Below, in pieces: positions 29,411-61,000 of a stretch of DNA of 64,000 nucleotides (its first letter is position 1; the number at the start of each line of letters is the position of its first letter). The notes below the pieces were generated by a model. That model was not told the origin of the DNA. It did not search any database and saw only the letters and a program-made list of their open reading frames with translations. The stretch lies in the NCBI RefSeq assembly GCF_035918095.1, contig NZ_CP109137.1, forward strand, positions 8,372,001-8,436,000, in the 5' to 3' direction. Made by a program: the position numbers and the translations under genes. Source of the stretch: Streptomyces sp. NBC_01750 (GTDB lineage Bacteria > Actinomycetota > Actinomycetes > Streptomycetales > Streptomycetaceae).

Positions 29411-29429
29411 TGACGGAGTCGGACGAGTC

Positions 29430-30281: not shown

Positions 30282-30336
30282 CCGACAGAGGCCACCACCG
30301 GACCTCCGGACCGAAAGACGACAGGACGGGAAAAGA

Positions 30337-30591: not shown

Positions 30592-30611
30592 CAGGGGACG
30601 GACCGACGACG

Positions 30612-31787: not shown

Positions 31788-31798
31788 GTGAGCCAGCG

Positions 31799-32827
31799 AT
31801 GACGACAACCGTGAAATGCGTGGTCTGGGACCTCGACAACACCGTGTGGGACGGGGTGCTGCTGGAGGACGGGGACGTCAAGCTGCGGCCGGGCGTCGCC
31901 GAGGTGATCCGTACGCTGGACGAGCGCGGCATCCTGCACTCTGTCGCCAGCCGCAACGATCACGACGCCGCCCTGGCCAAACTTCAGGAGTTCGGCCTCG
32001 CCGAGTATTTCCTGTACCCGCAGATCAACTGGGGCAACAAGTCCGACTCGGTAAAGGCCGTGGCCGAGGCGATCAACATCGGCATCGACACCCTGGCCTT
32101 CGTCGACGACCAGCCCTTCGAGCGTGACGAGGTCGCCCACACACACGCGCAGGTGCTGTGCATCGACGCCCTCGACGCCGAGCGCATCCCGCAACTGCCC
32201 CAGATGCGGCCCCGGTTCGTCACCGCCGACTCCCGGGAGCGCCGCCACCTCTACCGCGCCGACGCGCAGCGCAAGCAGGCCGAGGAGACCCACCAGGGCA
32301 CCGACGAGGACTTCCTCGCCTCGCTGGACATGCGCTTCACCATTTCCGCCGCAAAGGAGCGCGACCTCCAGCGGGCCGAGGAACTGACCGTGCGCACCAA
32401 CCAGCTCAACGCCACCGGATACACCTACTCCTACGAGGAGCTGGACGCCTTCCGCCGCTCGCCCGGGCATGACCTGCTCGTCGCGGGACTCCAGGACACG
32501 TACGGCAGCTACGGGAAGATCGGCCTCGCCCTCGTCCAACGCGGCGACGCCGTATGGACGGTGAAGCTGCTGCTGATGTCCTGCCGGGTGATGTCGCGGG
32601 GCGTTGGTTCGGTCCTGCTGGGCCACCTCATCCGCAGCGCCCACGAGGCGGGCGTGAAGCTGCAGGCCGAGTTCGTGCCCACCAGCCGCAACCGGACCAT
32701 GTTCGTCACCTACAAGTTCTCCGGCTTCCGCGAGATCGCCAGGAACGGCGACGTGTCCGTGCTGGAGCACGACGGGGCACGGATCCCCAACTTCCCGCCG
32801 TACATGGACGTCACGGTCGAAGTCTGA
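31799..32827 (+). CDS. HAD-superfamily glyceryl-ACP synthase (FkbH-like)
   Basis: A 342-residue protein that would take 1,3-bisphosphoglycerate, dephosphorylate it and load D-glycerate on the carrier. The HAD motifs are [13 protein letters not shown] (DxDNT), [12 protein letters not shown] and [12 protein letters not shown]. The C-terminal half ([54 protein letters not shown]) is the FkbH-specific acyltransferase-like part, with the conserved Cys in MSCRV. ATG 31799 is chosen because the conserved text starts six residues later; a longer frame overlaps the dehydrogenase gene. It completes the cassette and precedes the large synthase by 50 bp. Confidence 0.94.
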
Positions 32828-38800: not shown

Positions 38801-41800
38801 AGGACCTGCAGCAGTACGTCGCCGAGCACCTGCCGTCCGCCATGGTCCCGCAGCAGTTGTTCCGTATGGAGGAGCTGCCGCACACCCCGAACAAGAAGGT
38901 CGACCGCGGCGCCCTGCTGAGGCTGCCCGCACCTGTCCAGGCACGCCCGCGGCCCACCGGTGGCAGCGGCGCCGACGACGTCGAGTCGATCGTCATCCGC
39001 GCCTGGGCGGATGTGCTCGGCCGCAGCGACATCGACCCGGACCGTGGCATCTTCGGCCTCGGTGCCAACTCGATGACGGCCGTCGACGCGCACAAGCTCA
39101 TCTGCGCCGGCCTCGGCAGGGAGTTCCCGCTCTCCGCCCTCTTCCGCCACCCGACCGTGCGCCAGCTCGCCGCCCACCTGCGCAACGAGGCACCCGCCCC
39201 GCTCACCGAGGCGACCACGGCCCGCAGGCGTCACCCCGACGAGGACATGGTGGCGATCGTCGGCATGGCCTGCCGGCTCCCCGGCGCCCCCGACATCGAC
39301 TCGTACTGGGACAACCTGCGCAACGGCATCGAGTCGATCACCCACTTCTCCGAGGACGAGCAGCGCGCCGCGGGCATCGGCGACCGGATCCTGGACGACC
39401 CCGACTACGTACCGGCCAAGGGTGTGGTGGCGGGCGCCGACCTGTTCGACGCCGGCTTCTTCGACTGCTCACCGGCCGAGGCCGAGATCATGGACCCGCA
39501 GCACCGGCTCTTCCTCGAATGCTCCTGGCAGGCGCTGGAGCACTCCGGCGTCCTGCCCTCCACCTTCACCGGCAGCATCGGAGTCTTCGCCGGCTCGGGC
39601 CAGTCCGGCTACCGCAGCAGCGAAGAAGCCGTCGAGATGTCCGACTTCTACCGCACCATGGTCGGCACCAAGAACGACTTCCTCGCCACCCGCGTGGCCC
39701 ACAAACTCAACCTCCGTGGCCCGGCCCTGACGGTCCAGACGGCCTGCTCGACCAGCCTGGTCGCCACCCACCTGGCCCGCGAGAGCCTGCTGCGCGGCGA
39801 GTGCGACATCGCCCTGGCCGGCGGCTCCTCGCTCACCGTCCCGCTGGATCTGGGCTACTTCCACCAGGCGGGACTGGTCTTCTCCCCGGACGGCAAGTGC
39901 CGCGCCTTCGACGAGAAGGGCGCGGGCACGGTCCTGGCCAACGGCGTCGCCGTCGTGGCGCTGCGCCGGCTGTCCGACGCGCTCGCGGCGGGCGACCGCA
40001 TCTACGCCGTGATCCGCGGCAGCGCCATCAACAACGACGGATCGAGCAAAGTCGGGTTCACCGCACCCAGCGTGGAGGGCCAGGCCCGCGTCGTCGCCGC
40101 CGCGCACCAGGAAGCGCGCGTGAGCGCCGACACCATCGGATACGTGGAGGCGCACGGCACCGGCACCGCGCTGGGCGACCCCATCGAGATCCAGGCGCTC
40201 CAGCAGGTGTTCGCCACCGCGGACCGGTCCGAGCCCTGCGCGATCGGTTCGGTGAAGACAAATATCGGCCACACCGACGCCACCGCGGGAGTCGCCGGCC
40301 TCATCAAGGCGGCGCTGTGCCTGCACCACGGCGAAATGGTGCCGAGCCTCAACTTCGAGAGCCCCAACCCCGAGATGGGACTCGACCCGGGCCTCTTCTA
40401 CGTCAACACCCAGTCCAAGCAGTGGGAAGCGGAGCAGGGCCCCCGCCGGGCGGGTGTGTCGTCCTTCGGCCTCGGCGGTACCAATGCGCACGTCGTGCTG
40501 GAGGAGCCGCCGCGCTGGGAGCCCGAAATCTCCTCTGCCCTTGATGGGCCCGCTGTGGTGCCGGTGGTGGTGTCGGGTCGGGATGTGGGGGCGTTGCGGG
40601 AGCAGGCCGGTCGTTGGGCGTCCTGGCTGGAGGGGCATGCGGGTGTGCCGTTGGCGGGTGTGGCGGTGACGGCGGCTCGTCATCGGACGCATTTCGAGCA
40701 GCGGGCGAGTGTCACTGCCGACTCGGTGGCTGGGTTGGTGGAGGGGCTGCGGGCGGTGGCTGAGGGTGTGCCGCATGCGGGTGTGGTGGAGGGGGTTGCG
40801 GGGCGTCGGGGCCGGGTGGTGTTTGTGTATCCGGGTCAGGGTTCGCAGTGGGTGGGGATGGGTCGTGAGTTGTTGGCGGGGGGTGGTGTGTTTGCGTCGG
40901 TGGTGGATGAGTGTGATGCGGCGTTGAGGCCGTTCACGGGCTGGTCGGTGCGGGATGTGCTGGCTGGGGTGGAGGGTGGTCATCCGCCGTTCGACCGGGT
41001 TGATGTGGTGCAGCCTGCGTTGTTTGCGATGGGTGTGGCGTTGTCTGCGGTGTGGCGTTCTTTGGGGGTGGAGCCTGCTGCGGTGGTGGGTCATTCGCAG
41101 GGTGAGGTGGTTGCGGCGGTGGTGAGTGGTGCGCTGTCGCTGGAGCAGGGTGCGCGGGTGGTGGCGTTGCGTTCTCGTGCGGTGTTGTCCTGTGCGGGAC
41201 AGGGCGGGATGGCGTTGGTGGGGCGTCCGTTGTTGGAGGTGGAGGGGTTTCTGGCTCCGTATGGGGATGCGTTGTCGGTGGCTGCGGTGAATACGGCGGG
41301 GTCGACGGTGGTGTCGGGTCGGGCGGTGGAGCTGGCGGCTCTGGTGGGGGAGTTGCAGGGGTCGGGTGTGTTTGCGCGTCTGATCAATGTGGATTATGCG
41401 TCTCACAATGCGCAGATGGATCCGCTGTTGCCGGGGCTGGCGGAGGGCTTTGCGGGGCTGGTGCCGGGGGAGACGGATATTGCGTTCTATTCGACGGTGA
41501 GTGGGCGGGTTGCCGGGGGCCGGGAGCTGGACGGGGGGTACTGGTGCCGGAATCTGCGGGAGCCGGTGCGGTTCGACCGTGCGCTGGAGGGTCTGCTGGA
41601 TGACGGGCACACGGTGTTCGTCGAGATTTCCGCGCATCCGGTGCTGTCGATGCCGCTGACCGATGCCGGTGCGGACCGTGGTGGTGTTGTTGTCGGTTCC
41701 CTCGCCCGTGACCGGGGAGGCATGGAACAGCTGCTGCACAATGCGGGGCTGCTCCACACGCACGGACACGAACTCGACTGGGACCGGATCCTTCCCGCCA

Positions 41801-43179
41801 CTGCCGGCACCGGGCTCGTCCCGCTGCCCACCTACGCCTTCCAGCGCGAACACCACTGGAAGCCGTCGTCCCTCATCGGCGGCAGCCCCGCGACCCCCCA
41901 GGGCCAGGCGTTCTGGGACGCCGTGAACACGGGCGAGCCGGCCCGCGTCGCCGAACTCCTCGATGCGCCCGATCATCTGCGGGCAGGCGTCGCCGAGTTG
42001 ATGCCGCTGCTGACCGAGTGGCTCGAGCGCCAGGCTGCACAGTCCGCCGACCCGCCCGGCCAGGGACCGCAGCAGGACTCCTCCTTCCGGGCGCGGCTGC
42101 TGTCCCTCGGCGAGCAGGAGCGGCTCGGCCTGGTCCTCGATCTGATCAAGTCCGAGGTCGCGCCGGTGCTCGGCCTGCCTGTCGGCAGTGTCATGGACGA
42201 CCAGCCGCTCCCGCAGCTCGGCATGGACTCCCTGATGGCGGTCGGCCTGCGCAGCCGTATCGCCCGGCTCACCGGACAGCAGGTGCCGGCCCAGCTCATC
42301 CTGGGCGACGCCGGCTGCGCGGGCCTCGGCCGCGCCATCGTCGCCGCCGCCTTGCCCGGTTCGACGGAGGGCCCGAGCCACGACACGGGGCCGGGGCGCT
42401 GGCTGCGAATCCTGAAACCGGCCCAGCAGCCGTCCGCGCGGATCGTCTGTGTCGCAGGAGCCGGCGGGACCACCGCAGCCCATGTACCGCTCATCCGGTT
42501 CCTTCCCGACGGCGTCGAGCTGCTGGGTGTCCGGATGCCGGGCCGGGAGGACCGCTTCGCCGAGCCCGCGGCGACCGACATGCGCGCCGTGATCGACGGC
42601 ATCGTCGCCGAACTCACCGGCCTCGACGCCGTACCCACGGTGCTGTACGGGCACAGCCAGGGCTCCTGGCTGGCCTGGGAACTCGCGCACGCACTCGCCG
42701 ACCGGGCGGACTGCCCGCCGCTCACACTGGTGCCGGCCTGCGGCCTGCCGCCCCGCACCCCGCCGCCGCCCGGTATGCGGCGGATGGGGGAGCTGGCCGA
42801 CACGCTGGAGACGATGTCCGTCCCGGACCTGGCGGCGGCGCTCGCGGGAATTCTTCCCGACAGCATTCTCTCCAGCGAGGAACTGCTCACCGCATACGGA
42901 GCGGCGCTGCGCGACGACACCGTACTGGGCCTGAACCACCGTGCGTCTCTCGACGCCGACGCCAGGGATCCGCTCCGATTCTCCATTCACGCCGTGGCCG
43001 CCTCCGACGATCCCGTACTGCCGGAAGAGACCGTACGGGGCTGGCAGGAATACACCCACGGAGACTTCGTGCACCGGACCATCGCCGGTACCCACGCGGC
43101 TCCCATCGACAACCACGAGGCTATGGCCGCGGAACTGCTGCAGGCCATTCCGAAGAACCAAGGAGAGAACAATGCCTGA
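32878..43179 (+). CDS. Terminal hybrid PKS-NRPS: KS-AT-ACP-C-A-PCP-KS-AT-ACP-TE
   Basis: 3433 residues. The N-terminal about 35 form a docking coiled coil. KS1 37-460 (Cys205, DAHGTGT); AT1 570-865 with GSSQGE and TAGHS (766-770), a motif typical of ethylmalonyl ATs; ACP Ser1001. C 1062-1515 (HHAVTDGWS at 1191); A 1528-2018, whose binding-pocket residues read D-I-L-Q-L-G-M-V-W, nearly the glycine code; PCP Ser2065. KS2 2124-2545 (Cys2290, ACSTSL); AT2 2648-2942 with YASHN at 2840 (methylmalonyl type); ACP Ser3118; TE from 3188 (GHSQGS, Ser3260). There is no KR in either PKS module, so beta-keto groups should remain. The TE marks it as the last protein of the line although its gene comes first. 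ATG 32887 is an alternative start. The AT2 DNA is a near-copy of two other ATs here. The stop overlaps the hydrolase start by 8 bases. Confidence 0.93.
40561..41860 (+). repeat. AT-region repeat, copy 1 (methylmalonyl-type AT of the 32878 protein)
   Basis: 1300 bp, covering the end of the KS-AT linker, the AT and the post-AT linker up to the QREHHW end. The same 1300 bp recur at 53753 and 59463 with no indels and few base differences. Codon use (GTGTTTGTGT, many GTG/GGG/TTG) is unlike the C-ending codons on both sides. Confidence 0.93.
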
Positions 43180-46009: not shown

Positions 46010-46204
46010 ACCGGAAGCATGATGAACGCTGTCTCGTACCCCGCGTTCCGGCTGATGCCGCCGGCCCGATCCGGCACGCAGCCCCGGCACAACCGGCCAC
46101 GTCACGTGGGCACAAGCCGCCACCGTGACGTGGCCGGTCTCGTTCGAACTCTTGTTTTTCATCGCTGCCGGAAGTCCGGTCCGACGAGCATCAAGGAAGA
46201 GCCG

Positions 46205-49200
46205 ATGAACTTTGCCCAGGTGAACAGCGACGCAGGTCCCGCTGCGACGACGGCCGACGACATCGCCGGACTTGTGCGCGCCGTCCTCGCCGAACTACTG
46301 GGCACACGCCCGGAGTCGGTGGCCCTCGACCGGCCTCTGCGTGAGATCGGACTTGACTCCGCCCAGCTGATGAAACTGGTCGTCATCCTGTCCCAGACCC
46401 TTGGGCGGCCCGTACCCAGCTGGGTCGTCTGGCAGTACCCGACCGTGGCCGCACTCGCCGCCCACCTCGCAGGCGACACCTCTTCCGCCGCGGCCCACCA
46501 CGCGCCCGCCCGGCCGGGCACGGCGCAGGCGGCCGAGCCCGTCGCCATCATCGGCCTCGGCTGCCGGCTGCCTGGCGGCGTCGAGACCCCCGACGCCCTG
46601 TGGCAGGGCCTGCTCAACGGCCTGGATGCCGTACGGGAGGTCCCCCGCGACCGCTGGAACGCCCAGGAGTGGCTCGACCCCGACCCCCGCGCGACCGGCA
46701 TGATGAACACCCGCTGGGGAGGCTTCCTCGACAACGTGGCCGACTTCGACGCCGGGCTGTTCAGCATCTCGCCCGCCGAGGCCCGGCAGATGGACCCGCA
46801 GCAACGGATGGCGCTGGAGAGCACCTGGGCCGCCGTCGAGGACGCCCGGATCGTCCACGGCGACCTCGCGGGCTCCCGTACCGGTGTCTTCCTCGGCACC
46901 ATGGCGCAGGAGTACCACCTGGCCACAGGCGCCGACCCGGCAGCCATCGGGACCCACTCGGCGGTCGGCTGGGACAACTCGATCATCGCGGCGCGGATCG
47001 CGTACACCCTCGGTCTGCACGGCCCCGCCCTGGCCGTCGCCACCGCGTGCAGCTCCTCGCTGACCGCGACACACCTCGCCGTCCAGAGCCTGCGCAGCGG
47101 CGAGTCCGACCTTGCCCTGGCGGGCGGTGTCAATGTCCTGCTGCACCCCAACACCACCGTCGCCATGACCAAGTTCGGCGGCATGAACCCCGACGGGCAG
47201 TGCCGCGCCTTCGACGCCGACGCCGCCGGCTACGTACGCGGCGAGGGCTGCGGCATCATCGTCCTGCGCCGCCTGTCCGACGCACTCGCCGCGGGCGACC
47301 GCATCTACGCCGTGATCCGGGGCAGCGCCGTCAACAACGACGGCGCCTCCAACGGGCTGACCGCACCCAACCCGCAGGCACAGATCGAGGTGCTGCGCCG
47401 GGCATGGCAGAACGCCGGTATCGACCCCAGGGACGTCGCGTACGTCGAGGCGCACGGCACCGGTACCCCGCTCGGCGACCCCATCGAGGCCGGGGCACTG
47501 GGCAGCGTCTTTGCCGAGGGCCGCCAGGAGGCCCTGCGGATCGGCTCCGCCAAGACCAACTTCGGCCACCTGGAGCCCGCCGCCGGCGTCCTGGGCCTGA
47601 TGAAGACCGCACTCGCCCTGCACCACGGCGAACTCCCCGCCAGCCTGCACTTCGACACCCCCAGCCCGCACATCGACTTCGAGGCCAACCGGCTCGAGGT
47701 CGTCGCCGCCCGCCAGGGATGGCCGGGCGACAAGCGCCGGTACGCGGGCGTCAGCGGCTTCGGGTTCGGCGGCACCAACGCCCACGTCGCACTCGAAGAG
47801 GCTCCCTACCGCAGACGGCTGCTCGTACCGCTGGCCGCCGACAGCGAGGAAGAGCTGCGCGAGACCGCGGCCACCCTCGCCGAACGGGCCAGGACCGGCC
47901 GCGCCTGGTACGCACCTGAACTCCTGGCGGCCGGCACCGGCGAGCAGCGCGTCGTCGCCGCGGTCACCGACCACCACGGTCTCGCCGACGCCCTGCAGGC
48001 CCGTATCGACGCCCACACACCGCGCCCGTCCGGCGCGGCACGCCCCGAACTCGCCTTCCTCTTCTCGGGACACGGCGGACAGTGGCTCGGCATGGGCCGC
48101 GACCTGCTCGCCGAGCCCGCCTTCCGGGCTGCGCTGGAGGAGTGCGACCGAGCCGTACGCGCGGTCGCCGGCTGGTCCGTGACCGAGGAGCTGCTCGCCG
48201 ACGCCGACAGCTCCCGCCTCGACGCCACCGACGTCATCCAGCCCCTGTTGTTCTCTCTCCAGGTTGCCTACGCCCGGACCCTGCAGGCCTGGGGCCTTGA
48301 GCCCACCGTCGTCGTCGGACAGAGCGTCGGAGAGGTGGCCGGAGCGGTCGCCGCCGGGGCACTCTCGCTGGACGAAGGCGCCCGGGTCATCACCCTCTGG
48401 TCGCAGCTGTGCGCGGAACGCGCCTCGGGACACGGCACCCTGCTGGTCGCCGAACTCCCCCTGGACGAGGCGGAGCGCCTCGCCGCCGAGACCTGCGGCG
48501 AGGTGTCCGTCGCCGGGCACCTGTCACCCGGTCAGGTCTGTCTGTCCGCCCCGGCCGCCGCCGTCGACTCACTGGAGCGGACGCTCGCCGAGCGGGACAT
48601 CCCCACCCAGCGAGTCAACATCGACTATCCCGCCCACAGCCCGCAGATCGCCTCCCTCGGCCCTGAACTCGCGCGCCGCCTGGGCACCGTACGCACGCGC
48701 CCCGCCGCGGTGCCGATGTGGTCCACCGTCACCGGCGGCTTCGTCGACGGCACGTCCCTCGACGCCGCCTACTGGGTACGCAACATGTGCGAGCCCTTCC
48801 AGGTGGTCGAGGCCGTCACCGAACTCACCCGCGAACGTGACCTGCGGATCGTGGAGATCGCCCCGCACCCCGTCCTGAAGTACTCGGTCCGGCGCACCCT
48901 GATGGCACACCACGACGACCGCTCCACGGTCCTCGGCACCGGACACCGGGGCCGCCCGGCCCGCCAGGCGCTCGAAGACGTCGCCGCACGCCTGTGGTGC
49001 GACGGCTTCGACCTCGACTGGGGCGCCGTGACCGGCCGCCCGCAGCGCAGCGCCTCCACCGCGCCGGTGGTCCTCACCGTGTCGGGCAAGACCGCCGCGG
49101 CCCGCGGCCACAACGCGGCTCGGCTTGCCGAATACCTGCGGGGCGCCTCCGCCGCAAAGCTGCGCGATGTCGCCTACACCGCCGCCAACCACCGCTCCCA

Positions 49201-52200
49201 CCTCGAACAGCGGGCCGTGGCCGTCGCCGCGTCCGCCGACGAGGCGGTGGATGGGCTGCGGGCGGTGGCTGAGGGTGTGCCGCATGCGGGTGTGGTCGAA
49301 GGTGCGGCACTGGCCGGGGGTGAGCTGGCGGTGTTGTTCACCGGGCAGGGCAGTCAGCGGATCGGTATGGGGCGTGAGCTGTATCAGTCGTTCCCGGTGT
49401 TCCGGCAGGTCTTCGACGAGGTGTGTGTTGCTCTGGAGCCGCATCTGCGGATGCCGTTGGCGGCTGTGGTGTTTGCCGATCCTGATGGTGTGGATGCCCC
49501 GTTGGTTCATGAGACGGAGTTTGCGCAGCCTGCGTTGTTTGCGTTCGAGGTGGCGTTGTTCCGGTTGTGGCAGTCGTTCGGTGTGGAGCCGGAGGCGGTT
49601 GCGGGGCATTCGGTGGGTGAGCTGGTTGCTGCGCATGTGGCGGGTGTGCTGAGTCTGGCGGATGCTGCGCGGTTGGTGGCTGCGCGGGGGCGGCTGATGC
49701 AGGGTTGTGAGCCGGGCGGGGTGATGGTGTCGTTGGAGGCCTCGGAGGCTGAGGTCGTGGCGGTGCTGGCGGGAGCCGGGGGCCGGGTGTCGATCGGTGG
49801 GCTGAACGGGCCGGCGCAGACGGTGGTCAGTGGTGATGAGGCGGCGGTCGCGGTGCTGGTGGAGCATTTCACCGGTCTGGGGCGCAGGACCCGTCGTCTG
49901 GAGGTGTCGCACGCCTTCCACAGTGCGCATATGGATTCGATGCTGGCCGATTATGCGGCTGTGGCGGCCAGTTGCTCGTTTGCGGCGCCGCGGATGTCGC
50001 TGGTGTCGAGTGTTGACGGTTCTGTCATGGGGTCGGGTCTGGCTGCGGGTGAGGGGGTGCGTGATCCGCGGTACTGGGTGCGTCAGGTTCGGGAGGCGGT
50101 CCGGTTCCTGGATGTGGTGCGGACTTTGGAGAGTTCTGGGATCGGCCGTTTTCTGGAGTGCGGTCCGGCCCCGGTGCTGTCGGCGATGGCGGCGGGCTGT
50201 GTCACCGGGGAGGGTGCGGTTTTTGTCGCTTCGCAGTCGCAGCGTGGGGGTGAACAGGCTGATGAGAGCCGGGACATGTTCCGGGCGGTGGGCATTCTGC
50301 ACACCCATGGGCAGAGTCTGGACTTCACGCGGATCCTGCCGCCCGGCAGCACCACCGCACCGGTCGACCTGCCCACCTACGCCTTCCAGCGCGAGCGCTA
50401 CTGGATCGACGGCGCAGACCGCCCATCCCGCCACCACAGCAGCACGGACGACGCCCTGTGGCAGGCCATCGGCAGCGGCGAGGCCCAGCGCCTCGGCGAA
50501 CTCCTGGGCGTCACCGACGACAACGCGGCCGTAACCACCCTGCTGCCCTACCTCGCCACCTGGCGCGAACGCCAGGACCAGGCCGCCGACATCGCCGACT
50601 GGATGTACGAGGAGAGCTGGCAGCCGCTCACCGCCCCGCCCGCCGCCCCCGCCGTCGACGGCCACTGGCTGCTGGTCGGCCCGACTGCCGCCTCGGGGCT
50701 CGCCGAAACCCTCGCGGACGCCCTGACGGAGGCGGGCGCCTCCGCGCACATCCTCTCGGCCGCCTGTGACCGCACCGGATACGCCACGCTCCTCGCCGAC
50801 CTGAGCTCGGCGCTCGGCGACAAGACGCTGTCCGGCGTCCTCGCCCTCACCCCTGTCGACGAGACGCCGCACCCCGAGCACCCGGCCACCACCACCGGCA
50901 TCGCCCAGACCCTGGCACTCGTCCAGGCTCTCGGCGACGCGTCGGTCCGCGCGCCGCTGTGGCTGATCACACGCGGAGCCGTGCGCGCCCACGACAAGGA
51001 CCCCGCGCCCCGCCCGAACCAGACCGGCGCCTGGGGACTCGGCCACGTCGTCGCCCTGGAACACGCCAACCGCTGGGGCGGGCTGATCGATCTCCCCGCC
51101 GGCACCGACGCCGACCCGGCCGACCCCGTGGCGGCCGCCGCACTGGCAGCAGCCGCCCAGCAGCTGCCCGCCGTCCTCGCCGCACAGGCCGACGGTGAAG
51201 AACATCTGGCCCTGCGTTCCACCGGCCGCTACGTGCGCCGTCTGCACCGGGCAGCCCCCAGTACCGTCACACGGCCCTGGTCCCCCCGCGGCACCGTGTT
51301 GATCACCGGAGGCAGCGGCGCGCTGGCCGGGCACCTCGCCCGCAGCCTCGCCGACCGCGGCGCCGAGCATCTCGTCCTGGTGTCCCGGCGCGGACGCGAC
51401 GCCGAAGGCGCCGAAGAGCTCATCCACAGCCTCGAGAAGGCGGGCGCCCGCGTCACCCTCGCCTCCTGCGACGTCACCGACCGCCGGCAGCTGTCGGACC
51501 TGCTCGTCGACATCGCGTCCGACGAAGCACCGCTGCGTGCCGTCTTCCACACCGCGGGCCTCCTCGACGACCGGTTCGTCGACCGGCTGGACACCAAAGC
51601 CCTGGCCGCGGCCGCCGCACCCAAACTCGGGGCCGCCCGGCTGCTGGCCGAACTCACCCGTGACCATGAGCTCGACGCCTTCGTCCTGTACTCGTCCGTG
51701 ATCGGCACACTGGGCAACATCGGCCAGGCCAACTACGCCACGGCCAACGCCTCACTCGACGCACTGGCACACCAGCTCAGCTCCGAAGGCATCCCGGCCG
51801 TCAGCATCGGCTGGGGACCCTGGGCCGACGGAGGCATGACACACGGCGCCGCGGAAACCCAGCTGCGCCGCACCGGCCTCACCCCGATGGCCGTCGACCG
51901 GGCCCTGTCCGCCCTCGACGCCGCCCTGGCCACGAAGCGGTCCGCTGTGATCGCCCAGATCGACTGGGACCGGTGCGCCACGTCCTATACGCAGGGCAGG
52001 AACCGGCCCTTCCTGGACGAGATCACCCAGGCGCGCGCCGCCCTCACGCAGCAGACCGCCGATTCCCCGGCCGGTGACACCAACCCACTGCGCCGGACCC
52101 TGCTGGAAGTCGCCGAACCCGACCGCGAAGCGCATCTGCGCCGTCTGCTGGCGGCCGAGGCTGCGGCGGTACTCGGCATAGAGGATCCCCTCTCGCTCGA

Positions 52201-55200
52201 CCCCGAACGAGGATTCAAGGACCTCGGCTTCAACTCGATGATGGCAGTCGACTTCGCCGAACGCGTCCAGCGCCGCACCGGCGTCACCACCCCCAGGACC
52301 CTCGTCTTCGACTCCCCGGACCTGAGCTCCGCCGCCCGGTGGCTTCTCGCCGAACTCGCCCCCACACCCCCCGTCGCCCTCCCGGCCCCAGCCGGCACCG
52401 GCACCCGCGGCGGCCACCGCGGCGACGAACCGCTCGCCGTTGTCGGCGTCGGCCTGCGCATGCCCGGCGACGCACACGACCTCGACAGCCTCTGGCAGGT
52501 CCTCGCCGAGGGACGCGACACCGTCAGCACCGTCCCGGCCGACCGGTTCGACATCGACGCCTACTACGACCCGGACCCGGATGCCGAGGGCAGCACATAC
52601 GCTCGCCACGCCTCCTTCCTCGGGGACGTCGCTTCCTTCGACGCGTCGTTCTTCGGCATCAGCCCGCGCGAGGCCGAGCCGATGGACCCGCAGCACCGGC
52701 TGCTCCTCGAAGCGGCATGGCACTCCTTGGAGGACGCCGGCATCCGGCCGCGTGAGCTGCGGGACTCCCGCACCGGTGTCTTCGTCGGCGCGGGCGCGGG
52801 CGAGTACGGCAAGTACCGCCACAGCGGCGCACCCGACACCTACACACTGACCGGCGCCCTGTCGAGCTTCAACGCCGGCCGTCTCTCCTACCATCTCGGC
52901 CTCCAGGGACCCGCCCTGTCCATCGACACGGCCTGCTCGTCCTCGCTGGTCGCCCTGCACCTCGCCTGTGAAGCACTGCGCAACGACGAGTGCGAGCTCG
53001 CCCTGGCGGGCGGCGTCCAAGTCCTCGCCGACCCCGGCATGTTCGTGGCGCTCAGCCGCTCCCACGCTCTCTCGCCGGACGGCCGCAGCAAGGCTTTCTC
53101 GGCCGACGCCGACGGATACGGGCGCGGCGAAGGCGTCGGCGTCATCGCCGTGATGCGTCTGTCCGACGCGATCGAGCAGGACCGCAACATCCTCGGCGTC
53201 ATCCGTGCCACCGCCGTCAACCACGACGGCGCGAGCAGCGGCATCACCGCCCCCAATGGCACCTCCCAGCAGAAGGTCATCCGCGCCGCACTCGACTCGG
53301 CCGGGCTGTCCGCGGCCGACGTCGACTACGTCGAATGCCACGGCACCGGTACGTCTCTGGGTGACCCGATCGAGGTGCAGGCCCTGGACGCCGTGTACGG
53401 AAAGGGCCGTGAACCGGGCCGCGAACTCGGGCTCGGCACGGCGAAGAGCGTCATCGGACACCTGGAGTCGGCAGCCGGTATCGCCGGTGTGTGCAAGATG
53501 CTCGCCTCCTTCAAGAACGACGCGCTGCCCGCCACCATGCACAGCTCACCGCGCAACCCGAACATCGCCTGGGACCGGATGTCGGTCCGTGTGGTCGACG
53601 AGTTCACCCCCTGGGCGCGGGAGGAGGGTCGTCCGCGTCGGGCGGGTGTGTCGTCGTTCGGTCTGAGCGGCACCAACGCACACGTCATTGTGGAAGAGGC
53701 GCCGGTGCGGGATGGGGGCGAGGCTGCGGAGGCGGTGGCTGAGGGCCCGTATCCGGTGGTGGTGTCGGGTCGGGATGTGGGGGCGTTGCGGGAGCAGGCC
53801 GGTCGTTGGGCGTCCTGGTTGGAGGGGCATGCGGGTGTGCCGTTGGCGGGTGTGGCGGTGACGGCGGCTCGTCATCGGACGCATTTTGAGCAGCGGGCGT
53901 GTGTGGCTGCCGGGTCGGTGGCTGGGTTGGTGGATGGGTTGCGGGCGGTGGCTGAGGGTGTGCCGCGTGCGGGTGTGGTGGAGGGGGTTGCGGGGCGTCG
54001 GGGCCGGGTGGTGTTTGTGTATCCGGGTCAGGGTTCGCAGTGGGTGGGGATGGGTCGTGAGTTGTTGGCGGGGGGTGGTGTGTTTGCGTCGGTGGTGGAT
54101 GAGTGTGATGCGGCGTTGAGGCCGTTCACGGGCTGGTCGGTGCGGGATGTGCTGGCTGGGGTGGAGGGTGGTCATCCGCCGTTCGACCGGGTTGATGTGG
54201 TGCAGCCTGCGTTGTTTGCGATGGGTGTGGCGTTGTCTGCGGTGTGGCGTTCTTTGGGGGTGGAGCCTGCTGCGGTGGTGGGTCATTCGCAGGGTGAGGT
54301 GGTTGCGGCGGTGGTGAGTGGTGCGCTGTCGCTGGAGCAGGGTGCGCGGGTGGTGGCGTTGCGTTCTCGTGCGGTGTTGTCCTGTGCGGGGCAGGGCGGG
54401 ATGGCGTTGGTGGGGCGTCCGTTGTTGGAGGTGGAGGGGTTTCTGGCTCCGTATGGGGATGCGTTGTCGGTGGCTGCGGTGAATACGGCGGGGTCGACGG
54501 TGGTGTCGGGTCGGGGGGTGGAGCTGGCGGCTCTGGTGGGGGAGTTGCAGGGGTCGGGTGTGTTTGCGCGTCTGATCAATGTGGATTATGCGTCTCACAA
54601 TGCGCAGATGGATCCGCTGTTGCCGGGGCTGGCGGAGGGCTTTGCGGGGCTGGTGCCGGGGGAGACGGATATTGCGTTCTATTCGACGGTGAGTGGGCGG
54701 GTTGCCGGGGGCCGGGAGCTGGACGGGGGGTATTGGTGCCGGAATCTGCGGGAGCCGGTGCGGTTCGACCGTGCGCTGGAGGGTCTGCTGGATGACGGGC
54801 ACACGGTGTTCGTCGAGATTTCCGCGCATCCGGTGCTGTCGATGCCGCTGACCGATGCCGGTGCGGACCGTGGTGGTGTTGTCGTCGGTTCCCTCGCCCG
54901 TGACCGGGGAGGCATGGAACAGCTGCTGCACAATGCGGGGCTGCTCCACACGCACGGACACGAACTCGACTGGGACCGGATCCTTCCCGCCACTGCCGGC
55001 ACCGGGCTCGTCCCGCTGCCCACCTACGCCTTCCAGCGCGAACACCACTGGATGGAGACCAGGAAAACCTCCAACGACGCCGGCTCACTCGGCCTCGATT
55101 CCTCGCAGCACCCATGGCTCGGCGCCGCGACCCCGCTCGCCGACAGCGACAGTCATCTTCTGACCGGACGGCTCTCGCTCGCCGACCATCCCTGGCTGAA

Positions 55201-57826
55201 GGACCATGTGCTCTTCGACCAGGTCCTCGTCCCCGGCACCGGGCTCCTCGAACTGGCCGTCGCCGCCGCCAATGAGGTCGGCTCGGCAGGTGTCGCCGAA
55301 CTCACCCTGGCCGAGCCGCTGATCATCCAGGACGCGGTACGGATCCAGATCACCGTGCAGGCGGCCGAGAACGGGCGGCGCCCGATCACGATCCACAGCC
55401 GCCCGGAGAGCTCGCACACCTCGCCCGCCTCGTCGCACGCATGGACCCGCCACGCGAGCGGCGAACTGATGGAAGCGGCCACCGATCCTGCCGTAGTCAC
55501 GGCCGCCGACACCGCCGCCTTCGGCGAGCTCGCCCGGTGGCCTGTCGAAGGAGCCCAAAGAGTCGAACTGGACGGCCTGTACGACCGATTCGGCGCCCAG
55601 GGCATCGACTACGGCCCCGCATTCCGCGGCCTCAGCGAACTGTGGCGCAAGGGCGACAGAGCCTATGGCGTCGTACGCCTTCCCGAGCCCGGCACGGAGG
55701 CCGGCTTCACCCTGCACCCCGCCCTCCTGGACACCGCCCTCCATGTGATGAAGGGCGTCACCGCCCCCGGGGACGAGCCCGAAGGCGCTCTGCTGCCCTT
55801 CGAGTGGAGTGACGTCCAGCTGTACGCCATCGGCGGCGGCGAGCTGCGTATCCGTATCGACGTCGAACCCACCGGGACAGGCCAGGTGATCCGGGCCTGG
55901 GCCGTAGACGCCACCGGGGCGCCCGTCGTCAGGATCGGTCAACTTCATCTGCGCCGTGCCACCGTCGCCCAGCTGCGTGCCGCCCGCACCCTGGGCACCG
56001 ACAATCTCTACCGTCTCGGCTTCCAGCCCCTCGCCGCCACCGCACCGGCCGGCGCAGCGGCCGAGATCGTGCTCGGCGGCACGGGACACCTGGCCACGGC
56101 CCTGGGCGCCGAGCACCTGATCGGAACGGACGCGCTGTCCGCCCGGCTCGACGCACACCCGGCCGCCCCCGCCCGTATCGTCGTCGACGCCACTGGCTGG
56201 CCGCCCGTCCACAGTGCGCCCGAGGCCGCGTACAGGGCGACCGAACACGCACTGTCCGTACTCCAGGACCTGCTGTCCGACGAGAGGCTGGAGTCGACCG
56301 AACTCGTCTGGATCACCCGCGGCTCCGTCTCTGCGGCCGACGGCGATCGCGTCGACGGACTCGCGTACGCCCCGCTGTGGGGTCTCTTGCGCTGTGCCCG
56401 CTCCGAGCACCCGGAGCGCACGCTGCGCACGGTCGACCTCGGACCGGACGACAGCGACCGCGCCCTGCTGGCATCCGCGGTCGCCGTCACCGGCGAGCCG
56501 GAACTCGCCGTACGTGACGGCCAGGTGCTGGTGGCCCGGCTCGTACGGGCCGAGGAGCCGGCGAAGGACACCACGGTCCGGCCGCTCGACCCGCGGGGCA
56601 CGGTCCTGATCACCGGAGGCACCGGCGAGCTGGGCCGGGAAGTGGCACTGCGCCTCGTACGCCGCCATCAGGTCCGCCACCTGGTCCTCACGTCCCGGCG
56701 CGGCGCCGACGCGCCCGGCGCCGAGGATCTCGTACGCCGGCTCACCGACGAAGGAGCCGAATCTGTACGGGTGGTGGCCTGCGACGCCGGTCGCCGCGAC
56801 GACCTCGCGCAGGTCCTCACCCTGGCCGGCGAGGACCGGCCCTGGACCGCGGTCCTGCACCTGGCGGGGATCCTGGACGACGGCCTCGTGGTCACCCAGG
56901 ACGCGGCGCGGCTCTCCCGCGTGATGGAGCCGAAGGTGCGTGGCGCCTGCTACCTGGGCGAGCTGACCGCAGGTCTCGACCTGGCAGCCCTCGTGCTCTT
57001 CTCCTCGGCGGCAGGCACCGTCGGCACAGCCGGCCAGGGCATCTACGCCGCGGCCAACAGCTACCTCGACGCGTTCGCCGCCCGCCTGCGCACCGAGGAC
57101 CGCCCGGTCACGAGCCTCGCCTGGGGCCTGTGGCACCAGGCGGGTGTGGGCATGACCTCCCATCTCGGCCGGGCCGACCTGGACCGCATGCGCGGGCAGG
57201 GCATCGCCCCCCTCTCCTTCGAACAGGGCCTGGGACTGCTCGACACGGTCCTCGGGCGGCCCGCCGACAACTTCGTTCCGGTACAGCTCGACCTGCGCGC
57301 GGCACAACGGGAGGCCGACCAGGGCAATGCGGCACCCGCCCTGCTCCGTTCCCTCGTGCGGGCCCGGCTGCGCAAGGTGGGCAGCGGTACGGCCCCGGAC
57401 CGGCAGGGTCTGCGCGAGCAACTGATCGCCGCACCCGAGGACCGGAGGCCGGAAATGGCGACGGACCTGGTGCTGCGCGAGGTGGCCGGGGTGCTCGGCC
57501 TCGCCGGGGCCGGGTCCCTTGCCCCGAACGAGGTGCTCAAGGGTCTCGGGCTCGACTCACTCATGGCGGTGGAGCTGCGCCGCAGGCTGTCGGCGGCGAC
57601 CGGTCTGTCACTGCCCGCCACGCTTGCCTTCGATCATCCGACGCCCGAGCACATCGCCAGGCTCATCCTCGCCCGGATGGATCTGCCCGTCCCCGAGGCT
57701 GCGGGGGAGCGCAAGGCTCCCGGACCGGAGCTCACCGAAGAAGCGGCCGGCGAGGAGAAGTCGGTCGACGAACTCAGCGCGGAGCTGGACATGTTCCTCG
57801 CGGAGGCCGGGATCGACCTCGGCTGA
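46205..57826 (+). CDS. Type I PKS with tandem acyltransferases: ACP-KS-AT-AT-KR-ACP-KS-AT-DH-KR-ACP
   Basis: 3873 residues. ACP0 has Ser52 (GLDSAQLM). KS1 113-535 (Cys282, TACSSSL). ATa 615-915: GHGGQW, GQSVGE (Ser707), LWSQ with Trp732 in place of the carboxylate-binding Arg, and YPAHS (808-812); this is the pattern of loading ATs that take non-carboxylated acyl-CoA. ATb 1040-1345: GHSVGE (Ser1136), AARGRLM with Arg kept, HAFHS (1236), malonyl type. KR1 about 1697-1930 (LDD, Tyr1844); ACP1 Ser2011. KS2 2075-2500 (Cys2244); AT with YASHN (2795), methylmalonyl type; DH with His3001 and Asp3176; KR2 about 3465-3690 (LDD, Tyr3614); ACP2 Ser3785; then an acidic C-terminal docking tail. ATa next to a leading ACP suggests this protein starts the chain. 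ATG 46205 follows AAGGAAGAG. A terminator hairpin follows the stop. Confidence 0.92.
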   Translation: MNFAQVNSDAGPAATTADDIAGLVRAVLAELLGTRPESVALDRPLREIGLDSAQLMKLVVILSQTLGRPVPSWVVWQYPTVAALAAHLAGDTSSAAAHHAPARPGTAQAAEPVAIIGLGCRLPGGVETPDALWQGLLNGLDAVREVPRDRWNAQEWLDPDPRATGMMNTRWGGFLDNVADFDAGLFSISPAEARQMDPQQRMALESTWAAVEDARIVHGDLAGSRTGVFLGTMAQEYHLATGADPAAIGTHSAVGWDNSIIAARIAYTLGLHGPALAVATACSSSLTATHLAVQSLRSGESDLALAGGVNVLLHPNTTVAMTKFGGMNPDGQCRAFDADAAGYVRGEGCGIIVLRRLSDALAAGDRIYAVIRGSAVNNDGASNGLTAPNPQAQIEVLRRAWQNAGIDPRDVAYVEAHGTGTPLGDPIEAGALGSVFAEGRQEALRIGSAKTNFGHLEPAAGVLGLMKTALALHHGELPASLHFDTPSPHIDFEANRLEVVAARQGWPGDKRRYAGVSGFGFGGTNAHVALEEAPYRRRLLVPLAADSEEELRETAATLAERARTGRAWYAPELLAAGTGEQRVVAAVTDHHGLADALQARIDAHTPRPSGAARPELAFLFSGHGGQWLGMGRDLLAEPAFRAALEECDRAVRAVAGWSVTEELLADADSSRLDATDVIQPLLFSLQVAYARTLQAWGLEPTVVVGQSVGEVAGAVAAGALSLDEGARVITLWSQLCAERASGHGTLLVAELPLDEAERLAAETCGEVSVAGHLSPGQVCLSAPAAAVDSLERTLAERDIPTQRVNIDYPAHSPQIASLGPELARRLGTVRTRPAAVPMWSTVTGGFVDGTSLDAAYWVRNMCEPFQVVEAVTELTRERDLRIVEIAPHPVLKYSVRRTLMAHHDDRSTVLGTGHRGRPARQALEDVAARLWCDGFDLDWGAVTGRPQRSASTAPVVLTVSGKTAAARGHNAARLAEYLRGASAAKLRDVAYTAANHRSHLEQRAVAVAASADEAVDGLRAVAEGVPHAGVVEGAALAGGELAVLFTGQGSQRIGMGRELYQSFPVFRQVFDEVCVALEPHLRMPLAAVVFADPDGVDAPLVHETEFAQPALFAFEVALFRLWQSFGVEPEAVAGHSVGELVAAHVAGVLSLADAARLVAARGRLMQGCEPGGVMVSLEASEAEVVAVLAGAGGRVSIGGLNGPAQTVVSGDEAAVAVLVEHFTGLGRRTRRLEVSHAFHSAHMDSMLADYAAVAASCSFAAPRMSLVSSVDGSVMGSGLAAGEGVRDPRYWVRQVREAVRFLDVVRTLESSGIGRFLECGPAPVLSAMAAGCVTGEGAVFVASQSQRGGEQADESRDMFRAVGILHTHGQSLDFTRILPPGSTTAPVDLPTYAFQRERYWIDGADRPSRHHSSTDDALWQAIGSGEAQRLGELLGVTDDNAAVTTLLPYLATWRERQDQAADIADWMYEESWQPLTAPPAAPAVDGHWLLVGPTAASGLAETLADALTEAGASAHILSAACDRTGYATLLADLSSALGDKTLSGVLALTPVDETPHPEHPATTTGIAQTLALVQALGDASVRAPLWLITRGAVRAHDKDPAPRPNQTGAWGLGHVVALEHANRWGGLIDLPAGTDADPADPVAAAALAAAAQQLPAVLAAQADGEEHLALRSTGRYVRRLHRAAPSTVTRPWSPRGTVLITGGSGALAGHLARSLADRGAEHLVLVSRRGRDAEGAEELIHSLEKAGARVTLASCDVTDRRQLSDLLVDIASDEAPLRAVFHTAGLLDDRFVDRLDTKALAAAAAPKLGAARLLAELTRDHELDAFVLYSSVIGTLGNIGQANYATANASLDALAHQLSSEGIPAVSIGWGPWADGGMTHGAAETQLRRTGLTPMAVDRALSALDAALATKRSAVIAQIDWDRCATSYTQGRNRPFLDEITQARAALTQQTADSPAGDTNPLRRTLLEVAEPDREAHLRRLLAAEAAAVLGIEDPLSLDPERGFKDLGFNSMMAVDFAERVQRRTGVTTPRTLVFDSPDLSSAARWLLAELAPTPPVALPAPAGTGTRGGHRGDEPLAVVGVGLRMPGDAHDLDSLWQVLAEGRDTVSTVPADRFDIDAYYDPDPDAEGSTYARHASFLGDVASFDASFFGISPREAEPMDPQHRLLLEAAWHSLEDAGIRPRELRDSRTGVFVGAGAGEYGKYRHSGAPDTYTLTGALSSFNAGRLSYHLGLQGPALSIDTACSSSLVALHLACEALRNDECELALAGGVQVLADPGMFVALSRSHALSPDGRSKAFSADADGYGRGEGVGVIAVMRLSDAIEQDRNILGVIRATAVNHDGASSGITAPNGTSQQKVIRAALDSAGLSAADVDYVECHGTGTSLGDPIEVQALDAVYGKGREPGRELGLGTAKSVIGHLESAAGIAGVCKMLASFKNDALPATMHSSPRNPNIAWDRMSVRVVDEFTPWAREEGRPRRAGVSSFGLSGTNAHVIVEEAPVRDGGEAAEAVAEGPYPVVVSGRDVGALREQAGRWASWLEGHAGVPLAGVAVTAARHRTHFEQRACVAAGSVAGLVDGLRAVAEGVPRAGVVEGVAGRRGRVVFVYPGQGSQWVGMGRELLAGGGVFASVVDECDAALRPFTGWSVRDVLAGVEGGHPPFDRVDVVQPALFAMGVALSAVWRSLGVEPAAVVGHSQGEVVAAVVSGALSLEQGARVVALRSRAVLSCAGQGGMALVGRPLLEVEGFLAPYGDALSVAAVNTAGSTVVSGRGVELAALVGELQGSGVFARLINVDYASHNAQMDPLLPGLAEGFAGLVPGETDIAFYSTVSGRVAGGRELDGGYWCRNLREPVRFDRALEGLLDDGHTVFVEISAHPVLSMPLTDAGADRGGVVVGSLARDRGGMEQLLHNAGLLHTHGHELDWDRILPATAGTGLVPLPTYAFQREHHWMETRKTSNDAGSLGLDSSQHPWLGAATPLADSDSHLLTGRLSLADHPWLKDHVLFDQVLVPGTGLLELAVAAANEVGSAGVAELTLAEPLIIQDAVRIQITVQAAENGRRPITIHSRPESSHTSPASSHAWTRHASGELMEAATDPAVVTAADTAAFGELARWPVEGAQRVELDGLYDRFGAQGIDYGPAFRGLSELWRKGDRAYGVVRLPEPGTEAGFTLHPALLDTALHVMKGVTAPGDEPEGALLPFEWSDVQLYAIGGGELRIRIDVEPTGTGQVIRAWAVDATGAPVVRIGQLHLRRATVAQLRAARTLGTDNLYRLGFQPLAATAPAGAAAEIVLGGTGHLATALGAEHLIGTDALSARLDAHPAAPARIVVDATGWPPVHSAPEAAYRATEHALSVLQDLLSDERLESTELVWITRGSVSAADGDRVDGLAYAPLWGLLRCARSEHPERTLRTVDLGPDDSDRALLASAVAVTGEPELAVRDGQVLVARLVRAEEPAKDTTVRPLDPRGTVLITGGTGELGREVALRLVRRHQVRHLVLTSRRGADAPGAEDLVRRLTDEGAESVRVVACDAGRRDDLAQVLTLAGEDRPWTAVLHLAGILDDGLVVTQDAARLSRVMEPKVRGACYLGELTAGLDLAALVLFSSAAGTVGTAGQGIYAAANSYLDAFAARLRTEDRPVTSLAWGLWHQAGVGMTSHLGRADLDRMRGQGIAPLSFEQGLGLLDTVLGRPADNFVPVQLDLRAAQREADQGNAAPALLRSLVRARLRKVGSGTAPDRQGLREQLIAAPEDRRPEMATDLVLREVAGVLGLAGAGSLAPNEVLKGLGLDSLMAVELRRRLSAATGLSLPATLAFDHPTPEHIARLILARMDLPVPEAAGERKAPGPELTEEAAGEEKSVDELSAELDMFLAEAGIDLG
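53753..55052 (+). repeat. AT-region repeat, copy 2 (methylmalonyl-type AT of the 46205 protein)
   Basis: 1300-bp near-copy of 40561-41860 and 59463-60762. Near-identity to copy 3 reaches further, over 53617-55095 (1479 bp), from inside the KS end ([14 protein letters not shown]) to past the AT into the start of the DH linker. Confidence 0.93.
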
Positions 57827-58040: not shown

Positions 58041-61000
58041 ATGGTGTCGAACTCACAGCAGGACCGGATGGAAGCGGCTCTGCCCGCGATCCGCGCTCTC
58101 CAGAAGCGCGCCGCCGATCTGGAGGCGCAGCGCACCGAGCCGATCGCCGTGGTGTCGATGGCGTGCCGGCTGCCGGGCGGGATCGACACGCCGGAGGGCT
58201 TCTGGGAGCTGCTGGCGTCGGGCGGAGACGCCGTCGGAGGATTCCCCGAGCGCTGGAAGAGCCTGGATCTGTACGACCCGGATCCGGAGGCGGAGGGCAA
58301 GAGCTACTCCCAGCAGGGCGGGTTCCTCGACGACATCGAGCACTTCGACGCGTCGTTCTTCGGCATCAGTCCGCGCGAGGCCCTGTCGATGGACCCGCAG
58401 CAGCGACTGGTCCTGGAGTCGTCGTGGGAAGCGCTGGAGCGGGCCGGTATACGTCCCGACACGCTCGACGAGAGCCGCACCGGCGTCTATCTGGGCACCA
58501 TGGGCTCCGACTACGGCCACCTGGGCCGTGACCTGGACGCCCTCGACGGCTATGTGAGCACCGGCAAGGCGAGCAGCGTTCTGTCGGGGCGGGTGTCGTA
58601 CGCGCTGGGTCTGCAGGGCCCGGCCATCACCGTCGACACCGCGTGCTCGTCGTCGCTCGTCTCGATCCACCTGGCGGTCCAGGCCCTGCGCCAGCGGGAG
58701 TGCGAACTCGCCCTGGCCGGCGGCGTCACCCTCATGAGCGCCCCCACCCTGTTCGTGGAGTTCTCGCGGTTGAAGGCGATGGCGCCGGACGGACGGTGCA
58801 AGTCGTTCTCCGCCCACTCCGACGGCGCGGGCTGGTCCGAGGGTGTGGGTGTGCTGGTGCTGAAGCGGCTGTCGGCCGCACAGCGCGACGGTGACCGGGT
58901 GCTTGCGGTGATCCGCGGCTCCGCGGTCAACCAGGACGGCCGCAGCCAGGGACTCACCGCGCCCAACGGGCCCTCGCAGCGGCGTGTGATCCAGGACGCG
59001 CTGGCCGCGGCACGTCTGACCGCGGACGACATCGACGCGATCGAGGCGCACGGCACCGGTACGTCTCTGGGTGACCCGATCGAGGCGGGCGCGCTGGCCG
59101 AGGTGTTCGGCCCCGGGCGCGACGCGCAGCGACCGGTCTTCCTGGGCTCGTCCAAGTCCAACATCGGCCACGCGCAGGCAGCAGCAGGTGTCATCGGCGT
59201 CATCAAGACCATCCTCGCCCTGCAGAACGACCAGCTGCCCAAGACCCTTCACGCCGAAGAGCCTTCGCCGCTCATCGAGTGGGAGGAGAGCGGCCTCCAG
59301 CTCCTTCAGGAAGCCCGGCCCTGGGTGCGGGAGGAGGGTCGTCCGCGTCGGGCGGGTGTGTCGTCGTTCGGTCTGAGCGGCACCAACGCGCACGTTGTGC
59401 TGGAGGAGCCGCCGGTGCGGGATGGGGGCGAGGCTGCGGAGGCGGTGGCTGAGGGCCCGTATCCGGTGGTGGTGTCGGGTCGGGATGTGGGGGCGTTGCG
59501 GGAGCAGGCCGGTCGTTGGGCGTCCTGGTTGGAGGGGCATGCGGGTGTGTCGTTGGCGGGTGTGGCGGTGACGGCGGCTCGTCATCGGACGCATTTCGAG
59601 CAGCGGGCGTGTGTGGCTGCCGGGTCGGTGGCTGGGTTGGTGGATGGGTTGCGGGCGGTGGCTGAGGGTGTGCCGCGTGCGGGTGTGGTGGAGGGGGTTG
59701 CGGGGCGTCGGGGCCGGGTGGTGTTTGTGTATCCGGGTCAGGGTTCGCAGTGGGTGGGGATGGGTCGTGAGTTGTTGGCGGGGGGTGGTGTGTTTGCGTC
59801 GGTGGTGGATGAGTGTGATGCGGCGTTGAGGCCGTTCACGGGCTGGTCGGTGCGGGATGTGCTGGCTGGGGTGGAGGGTGGTCATCCGCCGTTCGACCGG
59901 GTTGATGTGGTGCAGCCTGCGTTGTTTGCGATGGGTGTGGCGTTGTCTGCGGTGTGGCGTTCTTTGGGGGTGGAGCCTGCTGCGGTGGTGGGTCATTCGC
60001 AGGGTGAGGTGGTTGCGGCGGTGGTGAGTGGTGCGCTGTCGCTGGAGCAGGGTGCGCGGGTGGTGGCGTTGCGTTCTCGTGCGGTGTTGTCCTGTGCGGG
60101 ACAGGGCGGGATGGCGTTGGTGGGGCGTCCGTTGTTGGAGGTGGAGGGGTTTCTGGCTCCGTATGGGGATGCGTTGTCGGTGGCTGCGGTGAATACGGCG
60201 GGGTCGACGGTGGTGTCGGGTCGGGCGGTGGAGCTGGCGGCTCTGGTGGGGGAGTTGCAGGGGTCGGGTGTGTTTGCGCGTCTGATCAATGTGGATTATG
60301 CGTCTCACAATGCGCAGATGGATCCGCTGTTGCCGGGGCTGGCGGAGGGCTTTGCGGGGCTGGTGCCGGGGGAGACGGATATTGCGTTCTATTCGACGGT
60401 GAGTGGGCGGGTTGCCGGGGGCCGGGAGCTGGACGGGGGGTACTGGTGCCGGAATCTGCGGGAGCCGGTGCGGTTCGACCGTGCGCTGGAGGGTCTGCTG
60501 GATGACGGGCACACGGTGTTCGTCGAGATTTCCGCGCATCCGGTGCTGTCGATGCCGCTGACCGATGCCGGTGCGGACCGTGGTGGTGTTGTCGTGGGTT
60601 CCCTCGCCCGTGACCGGGGAGGCATGGAACAGCTGCTGCACAATGCGGGGCTGCTCCACACGCACGGACACGAACTCGACTGGGACCGGATCCTTCCCGC
60701 CACTGCCGGCACCGGGCTCGTCCCGCTGCCCACCTACGCCTTCCAGCGCGAACACCACTGGATGGAGACCAGGAAAACCTCCAACGACGCCGGCTCACTC
60801 GGCCTGCACGGGTTCCAGCACCCCTGGCTGGGTGCGATGACAGCGACGGCGGACGACGAAGGTCTCCTCTTCACCGGACGTATCTCGCTCGCCGAACAGC
60901 CGTGGCTCAAGGACCACGCCGTCCACGACACCGTTCTCGTCCCCGGCACCGGGCTCCTCGACGTCACCCTCGCCGCCGCCGACCATGTCGGCGCAGCCGG

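Follow-up and report, generated by a model that had tools for sequence, protein, structure and literature searches.

A gene of Streptomyces sp. NBC_01750 poses the question of what two acyltransferase (AT) domains standing side by side in one module of a polyketide synthase (PKS) might each be loading. The gene lies in a stretch of 64,000 nucleotides that was analysed as a whole (the window; contig NZ_CP109137.1, positions 8,372,001–8,436,000, in a genome of 8.98 Mb and 3 contigs), and its first module has an N-terminal acyl carrier protein (ACP0) ahead of the ketosynthase (KS) and two complete ATs, ATa and ATb, between the KS and the reductive domains. We hold, at a probability of roughly 0.8, that this is the chain-initiating module of a line of PKS and nonribosomal peptide synthetase (NRPS) proteins and belongs to the class of tandem-AT starter modules whose first descriptions came from myxobacteria, in which ATa would charge ACP0 with the starter and ATb would charge ACP1 with malonyl. 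The features of the gene are as follows (KR, ketoreductase; DH, dehydratase; HMM, hidden Markov model, built from the window's own domains).

46205–57826, + strand: PKS gene ACP0-KS-ATa-ATb-KR-ACP1-KS-AT-DH-KR-ACP2 (translation, Pfam, own HMMs)
46259–46471, + strand: ACP0, the leading carrier protein, with Ser52 in IGLDSAQ (Pfam, motif, HMM limits)
46535–47803, + strand: KS of module 1, with Cys in TACSSSL, HGTGT and NFGH, not KSQ (Pfam, motif, HMM limits)
47804–48052, + strand: KS–ATa linker, shortened (HMM limits, structure model)
48053–48940, + strand: ATa, loading type, with SGHGGQW, GQSVGE, TLWSQ (Trp732) and YPAHS (motifs, HMM limits, tree, model)
48941–49327, + strand: ATa–ATb linker, containing the linker domain that precedes ATb (Pfam, gap survey, model)
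49328–50203, + strand: ATb, extender AT, malonyl type by motif, with GQGSQ, GHSVGE, Arg and HAFHS (motifs, tree)
50369–50407, + strand: post-AT linker motif behind ATb, none behind ATa (translation, motif survey)
51290–51829, + strand: KR of module 1 (Pfam)
52130–52348, + strand: ACP1, with LGFNSMM at 52223, limits approximate (Pfam, motif)

The longest open reading frame (ORF) runs from 46019 to 57826, and a start at ATG 46205, from which residues are counted here, is favoured because AAGGAAGAG lies directly upstream of it. A Pfam scan of the ORF returned three Acyl_transf_1, two KS, two KR and three PP-binding stretches, and the domain HMMs gave the order ACP-KS-AT-AT-KR-ACP-KS-AT-DH-KR-ACP. 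An earlier, sequence-only reading of the locus had placed two complete ATs between KS and KR, at limits that lie within 40 bases of those from the HMMs (about 48053–48940 and 49328–50203), and Ser52, Trp732, GQSVGE (from residue 705) and YPAHS (from 808) were all found where it had put them; in ATb, GHSVGE starts at residue 1134 and HAFHS at 1236. The two ATs are both complete and share 32% identity (ATb at C1:8421319 of the genome). Initiation of the KSQ type was rejected, since the condensing KS of module 1 reads TACSSSL, with its Cys kept and no Gln. ATa stands after the KS, unlike an ordinary N-terminal loading AT (AT-ACP type, as in BafAI).

Extender ATs carry an Arg that binds the free carboxylate of the extender unit. 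The residue at this site was counted in 409 AT domains (230 amino acids or longer) from the window and 120 listed homologues, which were the best 120 of 824 matches drawn from 1813 best candidates. Among the 56 ATa domains the site held Trp in 38, Arg in 8, Met in 5, Tyr in 3, Leu in 1 and Gln in 1, whereas Arg was present in 56/56 ATb domains; extender ATs had Arg in 271 and Trp in 2 (n = 273), N-terminal loading ATs had Trp in 17, Arg in 2 and Met in 1 (n = 20), and the ATs of KSQ modules had Arg in 4/4. GHG replaced GQG in 46/56 ATa domains against 4/273 extender ATs, and GQS replaced GHS in 48/56 against 2/273. The catalytic Ser and His were present in all 56 ATa domains, and eight chosen ones had 63 invariant columns.

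The avermectin loading AT (AVES 1, PDB 4rl1), which is located at the N-terminus ahead of its own ACP, resembles ATa in having TLWSQ and PAHSP at equivalent places of the alignment and differs in reading GHSLGE where ATa has GQSVGE. The putative assignment of ATb to malonyl rests on its HAFHS motif. In the excerpts of PMC5355916, avermectin (VPAHS) and myxalamid (VAVHS) take isobutyryl and 2-methylbutyryl units, and isobutyryl loaders have LAAHS; YPAHS of ATa leans, weakly, towards a short branched acyl group.

A survey of the homologues revealed KS-AT-AT in 56 of 123 proteins (3 of the window and the 120 listed; 55/120 without the window), and 48/123 begin with ACP-KS-AT-AT-KR-ACP. The entire domain string of the window gene occurred in 26/123 including the window's own, or 25/120 of the listed homologues. 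All 56 tandem proteins had a leading ACP near the N-terminus, although the ACP motif expression failed on 17 of these, and a KS with Cys, not Gln. Named sources were Streptomyces, Actinokineospora, Actinosynnema, Sorangium, Pendulispora and Enhygromyxa; the closest full-length relatives among the matches listed were from Streptomyces, with ATa identity of 60–65%, and the plasmid records matched by the window DNA were Streptomyces in 30/30 cases. A search of genome contigs, from which the best 80 of 382 loci were taken, used patterns derived from ATa, hence motif counts there are biased and those from the 409 AT domains are relied on instead; tandems were present in 27 of the 80, mostly among the top scorers, and included Streptomyces, Amycolatopsis, Saccharopolyspora, Crossiella, Micromonospora, Sorangium and Paraliomyxa. 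Within the genus, an ATa match with an E-value of 1e-80 or better was found in 4/295 genomes including the window's own (7 candidates scored per genome). The genus tally and the named sources of both surveys indicate that the tandem module is uncommon per genome, yet spread across at least two phyla.

Other modules of related layout came to light in these searches. The same genome contains a second cluster with ACP-KS-AT-AT-DH-KR (C1:6762001–6781000; locus L100, 14999–17116, minus strand), in which the two ATs match each other at 99.6% identity and the AT of the next module at 99.6–100%, and both have GHSIGE and Arg; this reflects either recent overwriting of a loading AT or another use of the tandem. 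A third tandem (C1:8768001–8782000; locus L099, 4902–9290) reads ACP-KS-AT-AT-ACP with ATs 36% identical, the first having GQSVGE and, by offset and not alignment, His at the Arg site, and the second GHSMGE. Herpetosiphon aurantiacus and a Herpetosiphonaceae bin (loci L034, 8001–8915, and L032) have ACP-KS-AT-DH-KR with a single AT, with GQSVG and a retained Arg in L034; this layout is possibly related to the tandem type, with one AT instead of two. In Streptomyces griseofuscus plasmid pSGRIFU1 (locus L014, 8022–9929) two short AT fragments follow ATa in the domain scan; they may come from a broken ATb or from a problem of reading frame.

The sequence-only reading had known no standard PKS layout of this kind, a view that published descriptions, cited here from excerpts, contradict. 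ACP-KS-AT-AT-KR-ACP is printed for MiuA of the miuraenamide pathway (Paraliomyxa miuraensis SMH-27-4), in which the loading AT is separated from its ACP by the KS, the PKS line is followed by NRPS and the proposed starter is acetyl; soraphen, myxothiazol, myxalamid and chondramide are named there as the same loading type (PMC10051162). JomP1 of Streptomyces caniferus is described as ACP-KS-AT1-AT2-KR-ACP, a layout termed rare and known from myxobacteria, and its first and second ATs are conjectured to serve the starter acid and the extender, respectively (PMC6117699). By that description JomP1 resembles the window gene in layout, genus and the proposed starter loading by the first AT, but its second AT is judged possibly inactive from an alteration of Gly and His within GQGSQ, whereas ATb of the window has GQGSQ, Ser, Arg and His. 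Because of MiuA and JomP1, the layout and the proposed mechanism are already in print, including for an actinomycete.

Less closely described cases extend this picture. An N-terminal ACP is given for ajudazol, aurafuron, chondramide and gulmirecin (PMC10646177), and two-AT starter modules or the same loading type are credited, by citation, to soraphen, myxothiazol, myxalamid, stigmatellin, chondramide, ajudazol, aurafuron and gulmirecin (PMC10051162, PMC6117699, PMC10646177). Kid13, the kidamycin loading PKS, likewise has two ATs in its starter module, but in the order AT-KSQ-AT-ACP and without an N-terminal ACP (PMC10646177). The excerpts of PMC4768178, PMC6274090, PMC2008767, PMC6164871, PMC10913735 and PMC7242659 contained nothing decisive on tandem starter modules. 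A locus of the miuraenamide strain (L031), which is presumably miuA, judging by strain and layout rather than an accession, has the same layout, with GHG and GQSIG in ATa and Arg and HAFHS in ATb; its ATa differs in being 43% identical to the window ATa, in having Ser at the Arg site where the window has Trp, and in lying on another ATa branch.

Trees were computed from 88 rows out of the 409 AT domains and from 107 rows once chosen loci were added, and approximately unbiased (AU) tests were made on the 88-row tree only. In that tree the window ATa fell in a 16-row clade of ATa domains only (support 100/98), with Sorangium and Pendulispora inside, and this clade lay outside the extender ATs and outside the sampled N-terminal loading ATs, among which avermectin was not represented. 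The neighbours of ATb were other ATb domains, along with some extender ATs. To test whether ATa branched off from ordinary loading ATs, the 16 clade rows (Trp in 15, Leu in 1) were joined to six loading-type ATs, of which 5 had Trp and 1 Met and two were labelled extender by the layout rule; the joint clade cost 118 log units and was rejected by the AU test at p 0.001, with sets chosen post hoc. A place among ordinary loading ATs, as the sequence-only reading had it, was not supported; ATa lay in a separate clade of tandem-module ATa. Trp at the Arg site required 3 changes on the 88-row tree, and a single clade of all 28 sampled ATa domains was neither rejected nor shown (AU p 0.30). In the 107-row tree the window ATa was again among ATa rows only (22 rows, 99/93), and the miuraenamide-strain ATa fell in a separate 10-row ATa group of moderate support (90/96), mostly myxobacterial where named, with one Actinosynnema, and with Met, Ser or Arg at the Arg site. 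Because ATa lies in a tandem-module clade apart from N-terminal loading ATs, its Trp apparently arose separately from theirs. Polyene loading ATs (eurocidin, rimocidin), which use acyl-CoA starters yet group with extender ATs according to the excerpts of PMC12843615, are an independent case of such a switch.

The surroundings of the two domains also differed. Ordinary KS-AT pairs (n = 285) have a median gap of 107. In the window the KS–ATa linker counts 83 residues when taken from the HMM limits and 84 as a gap value, and among the 56 tandem proteins 13 have a gap of 22–39 and 43 one of 66–99. A post-AT motif resembling YxFQ...YW was found behind ATb in 42/56, behind ATa in 0/56 and behind ordinary ATs in 240/285. 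Since the KS–ATa linker is short and the motif follows ATb, never ATa, ATa looks as if it had been inserted into an ordinary KS-AT module at the junction of KS and linker. The Pfam linker matches of module 1 (CurL-like_PKS_C at 1018–1080 and the RhiE-like linker at 1022–1086, ORF numbering) precede ATb. An AlphaFold2 model of linker-ATa-linker-ATb, from an alignment of 20 rows (19 hand-picked from the 80 contig loci), predicted confident folds for both ATs (mean pLDDT 88.9, pTM 0.60), and Foldseek matched it to solved KS-AT and AT structures, with TM-scores of 0.84–0.92 by target length for single-AT structures. A short alpha/beta segment stands ahead of each AT in the model; as this includes ATa, the description of each AT as having its own linker is fair.

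Several lines of evidence combine in the starter-loading reading of ATa: the domain order, the motifs, loss of Arg in 48/56 ATa domains against its retention in every ATb, the likeness to the avermectin AT, the ATa clade, the leading ACP and the Cys-type KS in 56/56, the layout of the miuraenamide-strain locus, and the published layout in which the first AT is assigned to the starter. The Arg-site residue and the kinship of ATa speak for a putative transfer of a monocarboxylic group to the leading ACP. Which ACP each AT serves, what the starter is and in what order the events occur are what we infer from these. ATa would take a monocarboxylic acyl group, perhaps short and branched, from its CoA ester to Ser52 of ACP0, from which the KS would pick it up; ATb would place malonyl on ACP1; and the KS would condense the two, the product then being reduced by the KR. 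The sequence-only proposal that ATa loads the starter and ATb malonyl is, in this comparison, supported by the Arg-site counts and the shared TLWSQ and PAHSP; the supposed kinship with ordinary loading ATs is not supported. The observation is confirmed as real and correctly described and the mechanism is sensible, but the probable starter module is of an already known kind.

Some points weigh against the starter-loading reading. Because eight of the 56 ATa domains retain Arg, the Arg-site rule is not absolute, and the role of the first AT in published work is itself a proposal ('conjectured' in the excerpts of PMC6117699). No starter-making gene could be tied to the module, and the plasmid relatives differ in the genes around it. 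At pTM 0.60, and with the ACPs outside the model, the predicted placing of ATa relative to ATb is not reliable. The window ATa also reads GHGGQ where extender ATs have GQGSQ, a point that lowers our confidence slightly, and since the JomP1 authors suspected inactivity of their second AT from a Gly and His change in this motif (PMC6117699, in excerpt), ATa might be a relic that does not acylate ACP0, with the starter entering by ATb, by a stand-alone AT or by direct acylation of the KS; the cluster does encode a separate AT-ACP protein (26933–29410). GHG is, however, usual among ATa domains, as are the catalytic Ser and His and the leading ACP, retained throughout the 56, and with the 63 invariant columns of the chosen ATa domains this makes a relic unlikely.

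Less probable still is that both ATs serve ACP1 with two different extenders and give two products. The ATs of Kid13 cooperate in loading two units (PMC10646177, in excerpt), but they do so in an AT-KSQ-AT-ACP layout, whereas here ATa lacks the Arg kept by 271/273 extender ATs, the N-terminal ACP would be left without a loader and the KS is not KSQ. An artefact of assembly or sequencing could be suspected from the repeated AT blocks in the cluster, at 95.8–98.9% DNA identity; it was rejected as barely conceivable, because ATa and ATb share so little identity that ATb is no mis-assembled repeat and because the same order recurs in other genomes, whether as the entire layout in the 25 listed homologues or as the tandem in the 27 contig loci, all from named records.

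The genes around the tandem gene are consistent with a longer assembly line, the following being the main features.

26933–32827, + strand: probable alkoxymalonyl-ACP set, with an AT-ACP-FkbM protein, hydroxyacyl-CoA dehydrogenase, ACP, acyl-CoA dehydrogenase and HAD-type FkbH-like protein
32887–43179, + strand: PKS-NRPS gene KS-AT-ACP-C-A-PCP-KS-AT-ACP-TE, probable end of the line (domain scan)
58041–64000, + strand: next PKS gene, with two modules, the second extending past the window end (one open frame)

A third PKS gene of two modules lies beyond the window (locus L101), and genes for crotonyl-CoA carboxylase/reductase (CCR), KS III and a thioesterase are at 6239–9629. The line would run from the tandem gene through the two-module gene from 58041 and the third PKS gene to the PKS-NRPS gene with its thioesterase. 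No literature match was found for the gene set of the cluster, and none of the best 10 of 104 papers listed suited it by title or by the opening of the abstract. A plasmid of Streptomyces sp. NBC_00162 carries a largely parallel cluster, in which type II PKS genes (KS, chain-length factor, two carrier proteins, aromatase/cyclase) stand between the CCR genes and the alkoxymalonyl set (locus L002, 8353–14954); directly upstream of the window's alkoxymalonyl set are an acyl-CoA ligase, an FAD monooxygenase and a cyclase-like gene. The YASH-type AT blocks of three modules (40441–41860, 53609–55309 and 59319–61019) have identical or nearly identical AT domains, and their near-identity in DNA, at the level given above, points to recent gene conversion or duplication.

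What remains of interest is the separate ATa lineage, its inserted anatomy and the spread in actinomycetes. A layout reported mainly from myxobacteria is also present in many actinomycetes, and there is a sequence signature for starter-loading ATs standing behind a KS; tools that assume one AT per module would misassign the starter and the first extender in such clusters. We see an even chance that a distinct AT lineage, marked by GHG/GQSxGE, acquired starter selection on its own through loss of Arg and was inserted into an ordinary module, behind the KS and ahead of the KS-AT linker, and that whole tandem modules then moved between Myxococcota and Actinomycetota. If so, ATb would retain the canonical linker frame, ATa would be a plug-in domain that reaches an ACP beyond the KS and could be transferred between modules as a unit, and it would be testable whether ATa can be swapped without touching the extender AT.

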